Assembly (NCBI RefSeq): GCF_000745235.1 | Contig: NZ_JQNL01000001.1 | Coordinates: forward strand, 496,001-560,000 | DNA from: Luteibacter mycovicinus | GTDB taxonomy: Bacteria; Pseudomonadota; Gammaproteobacteria; Xanthomonadales; Rhodanobacteraceae | DNA: 64,000 bases | Reading direction: 5' to 3' | Shown: positions 1 to 7,437 of the stretch, one piece after another | Layout of the letters: each line of letters begins with the position of its first letter | How positions within the stretch are numbered: the stretch's first letter is position 1 | Made by a program: the position numbers and the translations under genes | Notes under the pieces: generated by a model | Told to the model about the DNA's origin: nothing | Database searches by the model: none | The model's input: the letters and a program-made list of their open reading frames with translations, nothing else

Positions 1-870
1 ACCCGTTTCCGTGTGCTGCGTCCGCTGTACCGCGCGGGGGCGTCGATCTGGGAGCTGGGCATCGATGTCGGCGAGGTGTCCATCCACATCGGCGACGTCG
101 TCGTCTTCGTGTTCGCCACCTGGCTCGCGTTCTGGTCGGCCCGGGGCTTGCGCATGCTGTTGCGGGAGGAACTGCCCCGGTATGCCTCGCTCCCACGCGG
201 CGCCGGCAACAGCATCGCCTCGCTCACCTACTACGCGATCCTCATCCTGGGGTTTCTCCTGGCGCTCTCCGCCGCTGGCTTCAAGCTGAGCCAGCTGGCT
301 CTCATCTTCGGCGCGCTGGGCGTGGGTATCGGCTTCGGATTGCAGACCGTGGTCAACAACTTCGTTTCCGGCCTGGTGTTGATGGTCGAGCGCCCCATCC
401 AGCCGGGTGACGTGGTCGATGTGGCCGCGAGCTCCGGTACGGTTCGCGCCATCGGCCTGCGCGCCACGGTGATCCGAACCTTCGAAGGTGCCGACGTGGT
501 GGTACCGAACGGCCTGTTACTCAGCGGCAACCTGACCAACTGGACGATGTTCGATCGCACCCGGCGCATCGAGGTCATCGTCGGCGTCGCCTACGGAGCC
601 GACCCCGGCAAGGTCATCGAGGTCCTGCTTACCGCCGCCGGTAGCACGCCGGGTGTCTCGGAAGACCCGAAGCCCTCCGCGCAGCTCATCGGATACGGCG
701 ACAGCGCCCTGCAGTTCGCGCTGCGCGCCTGGACCCACGACCTCGGCGCGCTGGGCGATGTCCGCAGCGACCTGCTCGCTCATACCCTGGTCGCTGTCGA
801 CGCGGCGGGCATCGAGATTCCGTTTCCACAAGTCGAGGTCCATCTGCGCGACCCGGCGGCGCCAGAATGA
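1..870 (+). CDS. MscS-family mechanosensitive channel, 5' end outside window
   Basis: The reading frame is open from base 1, so the N-terminus lies before the window; 289 codons are visible. The visible part begins with membrane segments, followed by the hallmark MscS pore-lining helix (GALGVGIGFGLQTVVNNFVSG, about residues 103-123) and the beta domain that follows it (ERPIQPGDVVDV, then VVVPNGLLLSGNLTNW). MscS-type proteins are inner-membrane channels that open under membrane tension to release solutes in hypo-osmotic shock. The glycine/alanine pore helix and the PN motif are intact, so the channel looks functional. The extra upstream membrane segments suggest a larger multi-TM MscS subtype rather than minimal MscS. 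It converges on the MFS gene with 24 bases between the stops. Confidence 0.93.
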   Translation, partial: TRFRVLRPLYRAGASIWELGIDVGEVSIHIGDVVVFVFATWLAFWSARGLRMLLREELPRYASLPRGAGNSIASLTYYAILILGFLLALSAAGFKLSQLALIFGALGVGIGFGLQTVVNNFVSGLVLMVERPIQPGDVVDVAASSGTVRAIGLRATVIRTFEGADVVVPNGLLLSGNLTNWTMFDRTRRIEVIVGVAYGADPGKVIEVLLTAAGSTPGVSEDPKPSAQLIGYGDSALQFALRAWTHDLGALGDVRSDLLAHTLVAVDAAGIEIPFPQVEVHLRDPAAPE

Positions 871-894
871 CAACCACCGATTCACGGCGGAGGC

Positions 895-2118
895 TCACCC
901 GCCTGTACGCACCTCATGGAGGCGCGCGCGGCCGCCCCACCACAGCCCAAGCGATCCCATCGAAACGGCGCCGAGACACAGGAACGCGCCGTGGAATCCG
1001 ATCGTCTCGGCAAGCCATCCGCCCAGTGCGGGACTGAGTGCCGCGCCGACGCCCTGCATCGTCATCACCGCGCCCTGCGCGACGTTGACGCGCCCGGTGC
1101 CCTGCATCAGACGCGCTACCAGCGCAGGCACGGCCACGCTCTGCAAACCCGCGCCGATACCATCGAGCACCTGTACCGGAAAGACGCCCCAGCGGTTGAT
1201 GAAGAACGCGGCAAGTGCTCCGCGCAGCGGCAACGCAAGGAAGGTCACGAGGATGACCTGCCAGTAGCCCCGCGTGCGGATCAACCGCATCGCCAGCAGT
1301 GAGGTTCCCACCATCACCAGTTGCGCCACGACGATGGTCAGCGCCGTGAACGAGCTGGGCTCGGCCTGGTGCGCGGCGACCACCGCCATACCGTAGAGCG
1401 GCAACATCGCCGCGTTGCCGAGGTGAAACAGCGCGAGCGCGGCGGCCAGGATCAGCAGCGGCCGGCAGGTCACCAGGATCGATACGCCCGAAGGCGCGTC
1501 GTCGTTATCCCCGTCGTCCGATTCGAGGCCACGCGCGGCACGGTGATCGATCGCATCGGCCGGAATCAGCAGCGTCGACACCACCGCCAGCACGCCGAAT
1601 ACGCCTGCAACCAGGAATACACCACCGAAACCGAAACGCCAGCCGATGAACCCGGAAACACCGGCGCCGACGACGTTGCCAGCGTGGTTGGCCACCTGGT
1701 TGCGGCCGAACTGCCGGTCGAAGCCCCGCGCGCGGGCTATGCCGAGGGTGACGCCCGCGATCGCCGGCCCGAGCAGCGCGCCGGCGATCGCCGTGGCCAC
1801 CTGCGAGAGCACCACCATCGGAAACGAATGCGCGTACCAGACGATGCACGACGCGATCACCGTGCAGATCGACGACACGACGATCGCCAGCCGCTTGTAA
1901 CGCGTCGCATCGACCACGGCACCCGCCGGCGCCGTGACCAACAGGCCCGCGACGCCACCGATCGTCATCACGGTGCCGATGGCTCCGGTCCGCCAGCCGG
2001 CGGACTGCAAAAACACGCCCAGGAACGGACCGATGCCGGCCTGCACGTCGGCCACGAAGAAGTTGAGTGCTTCGAGCGGTCGTCGGCCGCGCATGGTTCG
2101 TTCCTGAGCGAGTGCCAC
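895..2118 (-). CDS. MFS transporter
   Basis: A 407-residue protein with about twelve hydrophobic segments and the loop signature of the major facilitator superfamily (GAVVDATRYKR after TM2; a repeat in the second half). It is an inner-membrane secondary transporter; the substrate cannot be read from sequence, and drug or metabolite export is the usual role of this length class. The GTG at 2118 has a good ribosome-binding site (GGGAGA, 6 bases away). An ATG eight codons later (2094) also has one (AGGAA), so the start is uncertain by eight residues. It lies 15 bases downstream of the two-repeat hypothetical gene and may be co-transcribed with it. Confidence 0.85.
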   Translation of the reverse strand: MALAQERTMRGRRPLEALNFFVADVQAGIGPFLGVFLQSAGWRTGAIGTVMTIGGVAGLLVTAPAGAVVDATRYKRLAIVVSSICTVIASCIVWYAHSFPMVVLSQVATAIAGALLGPAIAGVTLGIARARGFDRQFGRNQVANHAGNVVGAGVSGFIGWRFGFGGVFLVAGVFGVLAVVSTLLIPADAIDHRAARGLESDDGDNDDAPSGVSILVTCRPLLILAAALALFHLGNAAMLPLYGMAVVAAHQAEPSSFTALTIVVAQLVMVGTSLLAMRLIRTRGYWQVILVTFLALPLRGALAAFFINRWGVFPVQVLDGIGAGLQSVAVPALVARLMQGTGRVNVAQGAVMTMQGVGAALSPALGGWLAETIGFHGAFLCLGAVSMGSLGLWWGGRARLHEVRTGG

Positions 2119-2133
2119 GTGCGTCTCCCGGCG

Positions 2134-2703
2134 TCAGTGCTTCGGCTTCTTCGGCATCGGCTTCAGCGAGTCCGCACTCGTACCGATCGCTTCCGCATGA
2201 ATGACCGCGCCATGGGCGGTATCGGTCCAGCGACCTTCCACCGCGATGGACTTGCCCGGCGCGAGCATCCGTCCGAGTTCGGTCGCCGCGTGCGGCGGAA
2301 AGCGCACGATCACCCCGTCATCGAGCAGCACGCCGTGCGCATTGCCCTTGGGACCATGCAGCAGACGCGCGATCTCGCCCTCGTACGACCAGCGGGAACC
2401 ATCGTCATGCGGTTTGGGCTTTTCTTCGCCGGGTTTCGGACCCTCATCGACAATGCGCTTGCCTTTCGCGGGATCGATCGCCACCGCGACGATCACGTCG
2501 GCGCCGCGCACGGCCACGCCGCGTACCTCGAGCCGGCTACGTGGTTTGAGAGCTCGCGCCAGCGCCCGTGACAGATGGGGCGGCGTGTGGATTTCGGTGC
2601 CGTCGGTCAACAGCAGTCCATCGATATCGCCGTGCGGGTTGAGCAGGAAGCGGTCCAGCGTGCCGCGGGTAACGGGAAGGTAATCGGGATCGAGCCAATG
2701 CAT
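2134..2703 (-). CDS. Hypothetical protein with two internal repeats
   Basis: 189 residues, not recognised. It contains two copies of a roughly 65-residue unit. Copy 1 has FLLNPHGDIDGLLLTDGTEI then PP (about residues 19-42); copy 2 has LLHGPKGNAHGVLLDDGVIV then PP (about residues 113-136). Each is followed by a short beta-rich stretch (LEVRGVAVRG; IAVEGRWTDT) that suggests a small OB-like barrel. No signal peptide is visible, and a charged Lys/Pro/Glu/Asp linker separates the repeats. The neighbouring gene 2778-3539 carries the same two-repeat design plus a signal peptide, so the two are paralogues. Its position downstream of a terminator-like hairpin suggests partial read-through or its own promoter. 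Confidence 0.75.
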   Translation of the reverse strand: MHWLDPDYLPVTRGTLDRFLLNPHGDIDGLLLTDGTEIHTPPHLSRALARALKPRSRLEVRGVAVRGADVIVAVAIDPAKGKRIVDEGPKPGEEKPKPHDDGSRWSYEGEIARLLHGPKGNAHGVLLDDGVIVRFPPHAATELGRMLAPGKSIAVEGRWTDTAHGAVIHAEAIGTSADSLKPMPKKPKH

Positions 2704-2737
2704 GTGCTACTCCAGGGATAAAAAAGTCGGCAGGAAA

Positions 2738-2765
2738 CGCCACCGCCCATGGACGGGCGGCGGCG
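2738..2765 (-). terminator. Putative intrinsic terminator or attenuating hairpin
   Basis: In the minus direction an 11-bp stem (CGCCGCCGCCC / GGGCGGTGGCG, one G-T pair) with a 6-base loop is followed by TTT, with a further T6 run about ten bases on. It lies just after the stop of the secreted paralogue and before the cytoplasmic paralogue, so it probably limits transcription into the latter. Confidence 0.5.
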
Positions 2766-2777
2766 CCTGGATCGGGG

Positions 2778-3539
2778 TCAGGGCGTGGGAACGGGCGGCG
2801 TGGGAGCCGGTGCTCCGCCCAACGCGACACCCGGTTGCGGCGGCACCGGCGGGCGGGGTGCCATCGGGCCAGGCTGCGGCGGTGCGGCGACCGGCTGTTC
2901 GTTACCGGGGGTCGTGCCGAGAGCGGTCACCTGGATGGAACGGCCGTAAGGCGTGTTCACGCCGAATCCTTTGACGGCGATTCGTGCATGCGGCTGCATC
3001 AGCGCGCCGGCACGCACCGCCGCTGGAGGCGGCACGCGCAGGATCGAGCCCTCATCCAGCAGCACACCGGCCACGTCACCGCGCGGGCCGTACAGCGGCT
3101 GCTGCACCAGGCCGTGCGCTTCCATCGGCTGCAGCGCCGGTGCCGCTGGCGGAGCCGGTGGCGCGGCCGGCGGCGCGTCGCTCAGCTCCATGCCGCCCGC
3201 CGTGATCGATTCAGCCTGAAGCAGCGGCAAATCACCCACGCGGAAGCCCCGGGCGGTGAGACGATCGCCCCGATGGAGCTTGCCCGCCAGCGCGGCGCCC
3301 ATCGTCGGCGGCATGCCGACCTGCGTGTGATCGTCGAGCAACACGCCGTCCACGTCGCCATTGGGATTGACGAGAAAACGGGCGACGGTGCCGGTCACCT
3401 GGGTGCGATGCGCATCGGCAAGCGGTGCCGGCGGCGCGGGCGGCGGCGGCGGGATCGCCGAGGGGGACGGTCGATCCTGGGCGACGGCGCTGCCGATGGC
3501 CAGGGCGAGTGCGCAACCGAGCAAGGGAAAACGATTCAT
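2778..3539 (-). CDS. Secreted two-repeat protein, candidate sigma-54 target
   Basis: 253 residues. The start at 3539 is chosen because an AGGAG site sits just upstream and the encoded N-terminus (MNRFPLLGCALALAIGSAVA) is a clear Sec signal peptide. The frame extends upstream only across promoter sequence. After a proline/alanine-rich linker come two repeats of the unit seen in the neighbour: FLVNPNGDVDGVLLDDHTQV, and PLYGPRGDVAGVLLDEGSIL, each followed by PP. It ends in another Pro/Gly-rich tail. The function is unknown; an exported small-barrel protein is the most that can be said. A -24/-12 promoter match and two palindromes lie between it and the sigma-54 activator gene, which suggests it is the local output of that two-component system. 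Confidence 0.8.
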   Translation of the reverse strand: MNRFPLLGCALALAIGSAVAQDRPSPSAIPPPPPAPPAPLADAHRTQVTGTVARFLVNPNGDVDGVLLDDHTQVGMPPTMGAALAGKLHRGDRLTARGFRVGDLPLLQAESITAGGMELSDAPPAAPPAPPAAPALQPMEAHGLVQQPLYGPRGDVAGVLLDEGSILRVPPPAAVRAGALMQPHARIAVKGFGVNTPYGRSIQVTALGTTPGNEQPVAAPPQPGPMAPRPPVPPQPGVALGGAPAPTPPVPTP

Positions 3540-3583
3540 GATGAACTCCTGCATCGCGGTGGGGAGGCCGCGATGAAAACCGC

Positions 3584-3599
3584 TGCATCGTTCGTGCCA
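3584..3599 (-). promoter_or_regulatory. Sigma-54 (-24/-12) promoter
   Basis: Read on the minus strand the site is TGGCACG-N4-ATGCA, a near match to the RpoN consensus TGGCACG-N4-TTGCA with the obligatory GG and GC ten bases apart. Transcription would start about 12 bases downstream, giving a leader of roughly 35 bases before the ATG at 3539. A sigma-54 activator gene is encoded immediately upstream. Confidence 0.7.
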
Positions 3600-3650
3600 G
3601 CCGCGAAAGCGCTGAAAAACAGTCCTGTCGACACATCCGCGTCGATGGAA

Positions 3651-3691
3651 GTGTCCCCATCGGGGACACACGGTGTCCTCGCCACGGACAC
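3651..3691. promoter_or_regulatory. Tandem palindromic enhancer (UAS) sites
   Basis: Two 19-bp inverted repeats: 3651-3669 (GTGTCCCC-ATC-GGGGACAC, perfect) and 3673-3691 (GTGTCC-N7-GGACAC). Their centres are 22 bp apart, two helical turns, and they lie about 65-105 bp upstream of the -12 element. This is the usual geometry for a pair of NtrC-type activator dimers. The second site touches the stop codon of the activator gene. Confidence 0.65.
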
Positions 3692-5031
3692 TATTCGAGA
3701 CCGTGGTCCAGTAGCTTGCGGTAAAGCAGCTGGCGACGGATGCCAAGTCGACGTGCCGCCTCCGCGCGATTGCCCTGCGCAGCTGCCAGCGCCTGTACGA
3801 TCATCGCGCGCTCCAGCCGCGCCAGCGCGACAGGCAGCGACTCGCCCTCGCCGACCTCATCGCTCCCGCCTTCCGCCGCCGGGAGCGCGCCATCGGCAAG
3901 CATGCCGTCGAGGTCGGCCGCGTCGACCACCGGTCCGGGCACCAGCACCCGGCAGCGCTCCATGACATTGCGCAACTCACGGACGTTGCCGGGCCAGCGA
4001 TGTCGCTCCAGCCGCGCTACCGCGGCGGTCGACAGCCGCTTTGGCCGCGACTGGCCCGCATCGAGGAACGCCGTCGCCAGCACCGCGATGTCTTCGACGC
4101 GCTCGCGCAGCGGCAACAGTTCGATCGGCAGCACGTTGAGACGGTAGTAGAGGTCCATCCGGAACTCACCGGCCGTCACGCGTTCGTCGATGTGCCGGTG
4201 CGTCGCCGCGATCACGCGCACGTCGATCGGCACCGGCTGGCTGCTTCCCAACGGGGTGACCTCGTTTTCCTGAAGCACGCGCAGCAGCTTCGCCTGCATC
4301 GCCAGAGGCATGTCGCCGATTTCGTCCAGCAGCAGCGTGCCGCCATCGGCCTCGCGGAAGTACCCCTTGCGATCCGCCGTCGCACCCGAGAACGCCCCTT
4401 TGCGATGCCCGAACAATTCGCTCTCGAGCAGGTCCGGCGGTATAGCCGCGCAGTTGACGGCGACGAACGGCCGCTCGGCACGCGCGCCGGCGCGATGCAA
4501 GGCGCGCGCGACCATCTCCTTGCCGGTTCCGGTTTCGCCCGTGATCAGCACCGGAACATCGCTGGCGGCGGCGAGGCCGATGCGCTTGTGGACCTGATGC
4601 ATCGCCTGGCTGTGGCCCAGCATGTCGCCGTCGTCCGCCACGGAGGCGCCCGCCGGTTCGACCGGGCCCGCCGCCATGGCGCGTGCCACGGCGTCGGCGA
4701 GATCCTGCCTGCCGATGGGTTTGACCAGATGGTCGAACGCGCCCAGCCGCATCGCCTCGATGGTGTTCTGAGCTGACGCGAACGCGGTGAGCATGATGAT
4801 CGGGACGGGTGACGCGGGCGCGTCGGCGTGACGTGAGCGCAACAGCGCAAGGCCATCCATCCCCGGCATCCGGTAATCGACGAACGCCATATGGACATCC
4901 CCGGCGCGTAGCCTGGCCAGGCCTTCCTCCGCATTGCGCGCCATGGCGACGCCGTGGCCGAGCGACGTCAGCGTCGCGGCCATGGTCGCGCGGAAATCGT
5001 CGTCGTCGTCGATGATCAGGACCTGCGCCAT
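3691..5031 (-). CDS. NtrC-family sigma-54-dependent response regulator
   Basis: 446 residues with three domains. The receiver domain (about 1-120) has the acidic pocket IIDDDDD, phospho-acceptor D52 and K104. The AAA+ domain (about 138-370) has Walker A GETGTGKE (165-172), Walker [11 protein letters not shown] (231-240) and the sigma-54 contact loop GAFSGA (212-217), where serine replaces the usual threonine. A Fis-type helix-turn-helix closes the protein ([20 protein letters not shown]). It should activate RpoN promoters when phosphorylated. ATG at 5031 has a GGAGA site. It overlaps the histidine kinase gene by 16 bases, so the pair is co-translated. The palindromes just past its stop are the likely binding sites. 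Confidence 0.95.
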
Positions 5032-6446
5032 GGGATCTCCAGGCTAAAGGCGTGGACGCCGTCGTCGCGCTCGTAACGCGCATGGCCGCCATGACCCTCC
5101 GCGATCTCGCGCACCAGGGCCAGGCCCAGGCCGTTACCGTCGACCCGGCCGCTTGCGAACGGTTCGAACAGGCGCTCCTCGATCTCCGGATCGAGCGACG
5201 GACCCGCATTGGTTACCGTGATGCGCAAGGTATGGCCATCGTGGACGACCGCCATCCCGACGTCGGCCGCGTGCTGAAACGCGTTGCGTAAGAGGTTTTC
5301 CACGGCGCGGCTGAGCTGCTCGCGGTCGATCGCCCAGTGAAGGTCAGGAGCGTAGCGGCGCTCGACGGTGACCGGGCCGACATCTTTCCAGGTCGCCCGC
5401 TCGATCGATGCGACCCATGCCTCGATCGCGGTATCTTCCAGACGCAGGCGGATCGGCTGCACCATGCCGAGCAGGCTTTCGACCAGGTCGTCCAGTTTCC
5501 TTACCTGCGCCAGCACCATGGTCAATGGAGCGCGTTGCTCGTCGGACACGACGGGTGCGGCCAGCGCGTTCTCCGCCGCCAGACGCATGGTCGCGATGGG
5601 GTTGCGAATCTCGTGAGCCACGGTGGCCGTCATTCGTCCGAGACCGACCAGGCGCTCGTGTCGGCGCAGCTCCGTCGACAAGGCCTCTGCCTCGCGATGG
5701 CTGGCGTCGAGCCGGGACGCATAGGCGACCACGGCATCCGCCAGACGATCCACCTCCGGCGAACCGGTCCGCGGCAACGCGGGCACACCGGAGGACCGCG
5801 TCAGCGCATCCTCCACGGCGTCCAGCTTGCGCCGCCAGCGTCGCATGATCGCCACCAGGCCGATGGCCGAGGCCAGCGCCAGGGCGAACGGGAGACCGAT
5901 CCCGGCGGCCAGCAGGCTCGACGACCGCCCTGGCGCACGGGCCAGACGGGTCATCGTCCATACCGCACGCGTCGTGTCCAACGGGCACGCGGTGATGAGC
6001 ACGGTCTCGCGCTCGCCCTGACGCACGTAGGACTGCTCCCGCCGCGAGCTCACGGCCGCGCTGGCGGTGGTCACGATGTTGCCGCTCTCGGCCTCGGGCA
6101 CGTCGGTCTTGTCGCCCGAGCCTTCATACGTGGGATAGGCGTACGCGGTAAATCCCCGATCCGATTGCCATGCCCCGCCCTCGACGCCGCTGGCGTCCTG
6201 CAAGACCAGCTGCAGGACGACATCAAGCAGGCCGTTGGACGGCGACGAGGCACGCGCGGCGGGACTGGCGCCGCGGTAACGACTGACCACCGCTGCGCAG
6301 TCCGCGGACAACGCCTGCCGGGCATGCGCGACCTGCACCGATCCGGTCTGCCGCCAGGCCACCAGCAGCAGCACGCCCATGCCGACGCAGGCCAGCGCGA
6401 CGAGGGCCCAGATGACGAAGAGCTGGCGGGAAAGCGCGTTGAACAC
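5016..6446 (-). CDS. Sensor histidine kinase
   Basis: 476 residues. TM1 (about 9-31) and TM2 (about 177-201) enclose a roughly 145-residue periplasmic sensor region with no domain I recognise. A HAMP-like linker follows, then the HisKA H-box (VAHEIRNPIATMRLA, phospho-His 278) and a HATPase domain with N-box (ENLLRNAFQHA) and G-box (GNGLGLALVREIAEGHGG). This is the NtrB/AtoS-like layout typical of kinases that pair with sigma-54 activators. It starts at GTG 6446 with only a weak ribosome-binding site, so the start is less certain. The divergent kdsA gene begins 145 bases away. Confidence 0.93.
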   Translation of the reverse strand: MFNALSRQLFVIWALVALACVGMGVLLLVAWRQTGSVQVAHARQALSADCAAVVSRYRGASPAARASSPSNGLLDVVLQLVLQDASGVEGGAWQSDRGFTAYAYPTYEGSGDKTDVPEAESGNIVTTASAAVSSRREQSYVRQGERETVLITACPLDTTRAVWTMTRLARAPGRSSSLLAAGIGLPFALALASAIGLVAIMRRWRRKLDAVEDALTRSSGVPALPRTGSPEVDRLADAVVAYASRLDASHREAEALSTELRRHERLVGLGRMTATVAHEIRNPIATMRLAAENALAAPVVSDEQRAPLTMVLAQVRKLDDLVESLLGMVQPIRLRLEDTAIEAWVASIERATWKDVGPVTVERRYAPDLHWAIDREQLSRAVENLLRNAFQHAADVGMAVVHDGHTLRITVTNAGPSLDPEIEERLFEPFASGRVDGNGLGLALVREIAEGHGGHARYERDDGVHAFSLEIPWRRS

Positions 6447-6504
6447 CGGTGTCGGCCTGAACGGGGTGCGGCATCGTAGTCACGACATGAGCACGACGCC
6501 GTGA

Positions 6505-7437
<933 letters not shown>

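Follow-up and report, generated by a model that had tools for sequence, protein, structure and literature searches.

A two-component sigma-54 module in Luteibacter mycovicinus very likely drives an exported protein with predicted tandem OB-folds

What does a histidine kinase and NtrC-type activator pair control when a sigma-54 promoter and a secreted-protein gene lie directly downstream of it? The question is raised by a minus-strand locus in a 64,000-nucleotide stretch of the Luteibacter mycovicinus genome (assembly GCF_000745235.1, contig NZ_JQNL01000001.1, positions 496,001 to 560,000; hereafter the window), in which the genes of a sensor kinase, an NtrC-type activator, a secreted two-repeat protein (the effector), a paralogue of the effector and a major facilitator superfamily (MFS) transporter follow one another in this order (Table 1). 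From the sequence, we consider it very likely that kinase and activator form a dedicated two-component sigma-54 module that drives the effector, an exported protein with predicted tandem OB-folds; the module probably serves this single target. It is laid out like ZraPSR but lies outside that family, and its effector is named by no curated model.

An earlier note on this DNA had described a 16-base overlap of the kinase and activator genes, followed by a 152-base gap with a near-consensus -24/-12 promoter and two 19-bp palindromes 22 bp apart, and had proposed a kinase, activator, promoter and secreted-protein set with tandem enhancers. The gene coordinates agree with the overlap, and the short gap does carry the -24/-12 site; its length is 151 bases, the effector ATG lying at 3539-3537. 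The positions given in the note are accurate to one base. The promoter element TGGCACGAACGATGCA matches the sigma-54 consensus TGGCACGN4TTGCW at 11 of the 12 specified bases, GG and GC are present in the -24/-12 frame, and the RpoN DNA-binding domain has one match in the genome. A consensus scan of positions 800-6700 found no sigma-70-type site, a weak negative since only 0.5 were expected. The two palindromes, both GTGTCC-N7-GGACAC, start 22 bp apart, and the distal one shares the last base of the activator stop codon.

The scan of the 4,625,266-bp genome for the palindrome, which the earlier note had suggested, confined the exact 12-base dyad to this promoter: it occurs at two places only, both here and each readable on both strands, against a chance expectation of ~0.3 per genome (4.6e6/4^12). 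The same scan found no second copy before the kinase gene. A looser pattern (TGTC-N9-GAC, 45-75 nt, then TGGCA-N7-TGC) matched the genome 3 times, once here, and its backwards control also matched 3 times; therefore, only the match at this locus carries weight. Across the class, the exact double palindrome matched the window genome only (1 of 369 genomes), because the outer bases vary.

Conservation was followed in a collection of related loci. A single protein search yielded 58 effector relatives at an expectation value (E) up to 0.01, the named nearest ones being Luteibacter and Dyella proteins with 53-58% identity. The genome scan for effector loci retained 80 of 84, which together with 7 stretches from related genomes and the window made 88 loci. 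In 75 of these, an effector-family gene is preceded on its own strand by an activator match; the other 13 were skipped because no activator match reached residue 425 or no effector-family gene followed downstream on the same strand. Loci L018 and L038 were left out of the dyad and promoter counts, so that 73 loci (72 relatives and the window) were analysed. The order kinase-activator-effector is kept in Xanthomonas, Rhodanobacter, Pseudomonas, Bradyrhizobium, Methylobacterium, Acidiphilium and others, and deviates in L028 (divergent), L038 (MFS gene between) and L076 (effector first).

The core GTC-N9-GAC is present upstream of the effector in all 73 loci, in 137 copies, which bears out the conservation that had been proposed as a check. 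The 20 other spacers between 0 and 20 gave a largest count of 23, and N10 gave 0 copies in the 73 regions. A motif-free count led to the same core: the top four 5-mer dyads, GTCCG-5, TGTCC-7, GTCAG-5 and CTGTC-9 (in 24, 16, 15 and 14 of the 73 loci), all fit the one register GTC-N9-GAC, and the fifth, GCTGC-13 (10 loci), does not. Dyad sites scoring at least 8 of 10 numbered 91 in 53 loci. Single-base shuffles, which served as the null for the dyad, promoter, leader-stem and folding-energy counts, averaged 5.2 such sites and never gave more than 12. The base adjoining the core changed symmetrically in 62 of 99 unique sites, where 34.4 were expected, as for a dimer-bound dyad.

In 66 of the 73 loci, a -24/-12 match that includes GG and GC scores at least 9 of 12; 100 shuffles averaged 4.7 such loci and never exceeded 10, and the opposite strand gave 4 of 73. 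Scores of at least 11 were reached in 47 loci versus 0.08 in shuffles. The spacing of sites and promoter is fixed. A site centre lies at -86 to -80 from the T of the -24 TGG in 61 loci, and 45 of these have another one at -64 to -58. Between activator stop codon and promoter lie 17 to 348 bp, yet the site-promoter distance holds; thus, the sites are tied to the promoter and not to the gene end. Of the 30 loci whose -24 box lies 89 bp or more beyond the stop codon, 21 have a site at the standard positions, 8 of them at both, and the remaining 9 are the 8 shifted Pseudomonas loci and L093.

The geometry has 12 exceptions, namely (i) the 8 Pseudomonas loci (-93, -72), which keep a 21-bp spacing with the pair ~10 bp, about one helical turn, further out; (ii) L070 (-71, -50), whose sites lie about one helical turn closer in; and (iii) L083 (-96, -74), L048 (-79, -57) and L093 (-102). 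The promoter varies separately in seven Methylobacterium loci (L065, L069, L072, L074, L086, L089 and L090), which keep TGGCAY at -24 and have TTGAC (6 loci) or TTGGG (1 locus) instead of TTGC at -12.

The genes also occur together. Among 101 genomes, the kinase sensor half and a full-length effector were found in the same 5, the window's own included (G000, G005, G007, G015 and G031), the earlier note having suggested a scan for co-occurrence; G004 and G009 have the paralogue only. Site plus promoter matched 14 times in a scan of 10 genomes: 9 matches lie at the effector locus (in 9 genomes) and 5 elsewhere, equal to the 5 of the backwards control. A wider regulon was rejected, as neither the window genome (3 versus 3) nor the ten genomes (5 off-locus versus 5) showed an excess over control; therefore, the activator probably has one target promoter.

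The 15 left-out loci and L036 were inspected separately. Sites were found in L028, L033, L038, L052, L076 and L080; L015, L068, L077 and L081 offered too little or no upstream sequence for the search; and the paralogue-only loci L098, L100 and L101 had no such sites. In L033, a Terriglobia metagenome-assembled genome, the effector is accompanied by a 12/12 -24/-12 match and a 10/10 dyad, but the 6 kb on either side contain no activator match; the locus may be under trans control, transferred or mis-binned.

Several observations weigh against the proposed module. The support is sequence-based throughout, and nothing points to a specific signal. The 73 loci are not independent, as they include 19 from Bradyrhizobium (one of them, L055, titled Frankia sp. 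RB7), 13 from Xanthomonas, 8 from Pseudomonas and 8 from Methylobacterium. Many alphaproteobacterial loci have their sites within the 3'-terminal coding sequence of the activator, which makes coding constraint a partial confounder, and the other variable dyad positions change together at or little above the rate for independence (e.g., 53 versus 43.0 and 17 versus 19.2). The 13 Xanthomonas loci have the core at the distal position only, and GC at -12 is missing in 7 of the 8 Methylobacterium loci. Two loci, L018 and L079, carry the effector and have no GTC-N9-GAC within 500 bp upstream; L038 has a site and no -24/-12 match of 10 or more; and one of the 10 scanned genomes gave no match to site plus promoter. 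Genome G002 has a marginal sensor match (E 9.5e-4, one stop inside) and no effector. Finally, each of the two conserved periplasmic cysteines of the kinase (described below) is replaced by another residue in two of 69 kinases.

The activator has the NtrC-family architecture of receiver, AAA+ sigma-54 interaction domain and Fis-type helix-turn-helix (HTH). Its phospho-acceptor Asp52 is conserved in 72 of 72 sequences, its loop reads GAFTGA in 29, GAFSGA in 26 (the window among them) and GSFTGA in 17, and the HTH residues Arg433 and Gln434 are present in 72 and 71. Read by eye, the kinase N-terminus consists of helices flanking a periplasmic segment. This segment contains two cysteines, Cys50 and Cys154, which are conserved in 65 and 66 of the 69 extracted kinases; the phospho-acceptor His278 is found in all 69. 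In the kinase model (mean pLDDT 87.7, pTM 0.46), the periplasmic segment forms a mixed alpha-beta domain according to the model's secondary structure. The Foldseek and VIA matches of the kinase are dominated by the catalytic core, with the ZraS core (9jfj) among the best.

On this basis, the circuit would work as follows. The membrane kinase would sense a periplasmic condition and phosphorylate the NtrC-type activator, which would bind ~83 and ~61 bp upstream of the -24 box, where the two dyads with their GTC-N9-GAC core are separated by two helical turns. At the -24/-12 promoter, the AAA+ domain of the activator would then open an RpoN holoenzyme. The tandem OB-fold protein would be made and exported, followed in some lineages by the paralogue and an MFS pump. 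The earlier note had allowed that these two genes possibly follow in the circuit; both are present here, and both are optional. MFS genes lie downstream in many loci, and in the 8 Pseudomonas loci neither MFS gene nor paralogue was found, the MFS gene being unmatched in several further loci as well, such as L040, L043 and L078. Because the two genes come and go and a weak terminator-like hairpin lies between effector and paralogue, we regard kinase, activator, promoter and effector as the core.

By eye, the N-terminus of the effector carries an export signal. The AlphaFold2 model of the protein (mean pLDDT 87.2) is mostly beta, and each repeat has the predicted strand order E-E-E-H-E-E and matches OB proteins structurally; an OB-fold is thus predicted for both. 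The best structural matches are mostly SSB and PriB chains. The VIA matches mostly span residues 39-117, and repeat 2 appears in PriB-type matches; among the best 50 Foldseek matches, those that span both repeats have a TM-score of ~0.2 (by query length). The earlier note did not recognise the effector family, and profile searches agree: the window effector matches nothing in Pfam at E up to 1 or in NCBIfam at E up to 0.1. The OB-fold families DUF5666 (PF18914) and tRNA_anti-codon share the OB topology with each repeat and match 1 of the 58 family members each (E 0.0015 and 2.5e-8, respectively); by contrast, the window effector matches neither model, and the family has a motif type of its own, PxGDxDG-L-DGT-PP. 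Matches to Cuticle_1 (23 of 58 relatives, best E 4.7e-7) and FtsQ_DivIB_C (5 relatives) were taken, without proof, as short-motif coincidences.

A second feature lies between promoter and effector. The leader is taken here as the stretch between predicted start and effector ATG. A perfect stem of at least 5 pairs opens it in 37 of 56 unique leaders (L093 left out); 300 shuffles averaged 3.7 and reached 10 at most, and eight control segments gave 1 to 15 of 56. The 37 stem-bearing leaders are not independent, many of them coming from Xanthomonas or Bradyrhizobium with the same stem, and the stem is lacking in Pseudomonas and some Bradyrhizobium. Outside Bradyrhizobium, many loops are rich in pyrimidines and contain CUCC or UCCC, candidates for pairing with the Shine-Dalgarno sequence. 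Folding energies are mildly below those of shuffles (mean z -0.79 over 66 leaders, the window leader being cut at an in-frame ATG inside the hairpin and that of L093 being misread at 392 nt). A known RNA was rejected, as positions 3400-3720 gave no Rfam match at E up to 1.

Two described systems come closest. In ZraPSR, an NtrC-family response regulator drives a periplasmic protein from a sigma-54 promoter beside its own genes (PMC4987338). The window shares with it a two-component system with an NtrC-type regulator, an exported-protein gene next door and a sigma-54 promoter. It differs in gene arrangement, which is collinear here, whereas zraP and zraSR are divergent (PMC4987338), and in its effector, a predicted tandem OB-fold protein with a mostly beta model and no Pfam family, ZraP-type or other, at the threshold given above. 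Membership was rejected by score: the activator reaches 371 bits, the ZraR cut-off being 760 (NF007689), and the kinase 103 bits, the ZraS cut-off being 479 (NF007688). GlrKR/QseEF likewise has a sigma-54 response regulator acting on TGTC...GACA dyads. The operator consensus of QseF/GlrR is TGTC-N10-GACA (PMC8745638, PMC4987338); the spacer here is N9, and the target here is a protein gene instead of the small RNA glmY. The activator scores 359 bits against the GlrR cut-off of 763 (NF011695), and the N10 spacer is the one with no copy in the 73 regions; membership was therefore rejected. So was PrsK/PrsR (PEP-CTERM), with 339 bits against the TIGR02915 cut-off of 502.6. None of the literature matches listed, at most the best 15 of up to 246, describes the circuit, in line with the earlier note's suspicion that it may be undescribed; subscription papers are mostly missing from these matches, and papers that use only locus tags would escape them.

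What the module responds to is less certain than its wiring. We prefer a role in envelope stress because of the analogy with ZraPSR and the cysteine pair, and hold it to be plausible, if somewhat short of probable. The signal may be an envelope insult (an oxidant, a metal or another toxic compound) that the periplasmic domain senses with its two cysteines, and the effector would work in the periplasm or at the envelope, where it may bind a ligand or a damaged component. The fullest version is possible and in our view doubtful: a single-target, previously undescribed envelope-response system, found in alpha-, beta- and gammaproteobacteria as well as in one Terriglobia assembly, in which the two cysteines are redox-active, the GTC-N9-GAC array keeps a fixed helical phase and the conserved 5' stem-loop of the mRNA provides a second control layer.

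The main rival to envelope stress is a nutrient or substrate response, which we judge unlikely. Here the two-component system would sense a small molecule, the OB protein would be a periplasmic binding protein and the MFS protein an importer or exporter. Ligand-binding sensor domains are often mixed alpha-beta, as is the modelled periplasmic segment of the kinase, and the downstream MFS genes would fit such a response; against this, the MFS gene is missing from the loci named above, the gene set of the window includes no catabolic gene, and the best 50 matches of each effector structure list contain no solute-binding proteins. Distinctly less likely is that the exported protein binds nucleic acid outside the cytoplasm, as in DNA uptake or matrix DNA, a suggestion that draws on the likeness of the repeats to SSB and PriB. 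The least likely alternative, and a very improbable one, is that another regulator binds the dyads while the adjacent activator acts elsewhere, the effector promoter lying beside two-component genes by chance: we infer the activator-dyad binding, and L033 (6 kb on each side), L052 and L080 (contig ends) have sites and a -24/-12 match yet no activator in the stretch, but these loci can be under trans control or truncated, and the shared presence of sensor half and effector, the upstream same-strand activator, the invariant Arg433 and the lack of excess targets in the 10-genome scan all speak against it.

Nearly the whole circuit can be read from sequence: a single sensor and activator, a single operator layout and, it seems, a single target, with a core layout that is retained across classes even as the optional genes vary. 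An exported OB-fold family that is so far uncharacterised thereby becomes directly testable, since its expression reports its own signal. The loci also lend themselves to asking how strictly enhancers of the NtrC type hold their distance and helical phase to a -24/-12 promoter.

Table 1. Features of the locus in window coordinates.
Feature	Position	Strand	Remarks
Sensor histidine kinase, 476 aa, GTG start	5016..6446	minus	Pfam HisKA + HATPase_c
NtrC-type response regulator, 446 aa	3691..5031	minus	Pfam Response_reg, Sigma54_activat, HTH_8
Putative distal enhancer palindrome GTGTCC-N7-GGACAC	3673..3691	minus	centre ~83 bp upstream of T of -24 TGG
Putative proximal enhancer palindrome GTGTCC-N7-GGACAC	3651..3669	minus	centre ~61 bp upstream of T of -24 TGG
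Predicted -24/-12 sigma-54 promoter TGGCACGAACGATGCA	3584..3599	minus	predicted start ~3573
Predicted 5'-terminal leader stem-loop, loop CCUCCCCA, then Shine-Dalgarno AGGAG	3552..3575	minus	
Secreted effector, 253 aa	2778..3539	minus	signal peptide (by eye), two repeats, Pro-rich tail
OB-fold-like repeat 1 of effector, residues 43-120	3180..3413	minus	
OB-fold-like repeat 2 of effector, residues 137-208	2916..3131	minus	
Terminator-like hairpin then T run	2728..2745	minus	separates effector from paralogue
Effector paralogue, 189 aa	2134..2703	minus	no signal peptide by eye; optional
MFS transporter, 407 aa	895..2118	minus	Pfam MFS_1; optional

The terminator-like hairpin is one of 4 such sites in 800-6700, compared with a shuffle mean of 2.5, and is hence weak; the genes downstream of it may be co-transcribed only in part. 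In L100 and L101, the paralogue adjoins an MFS gene in genomes without a sensor-half match, and paralogue and MFS gene are perhaps an older pair that the module joined later. In the Roseomonas locus L028, two divergent effector-family genes (upstream of 5401 on the minus strand and of 6001 on the plus strand) share four dyads, and each has a -24/-12 match of its own.

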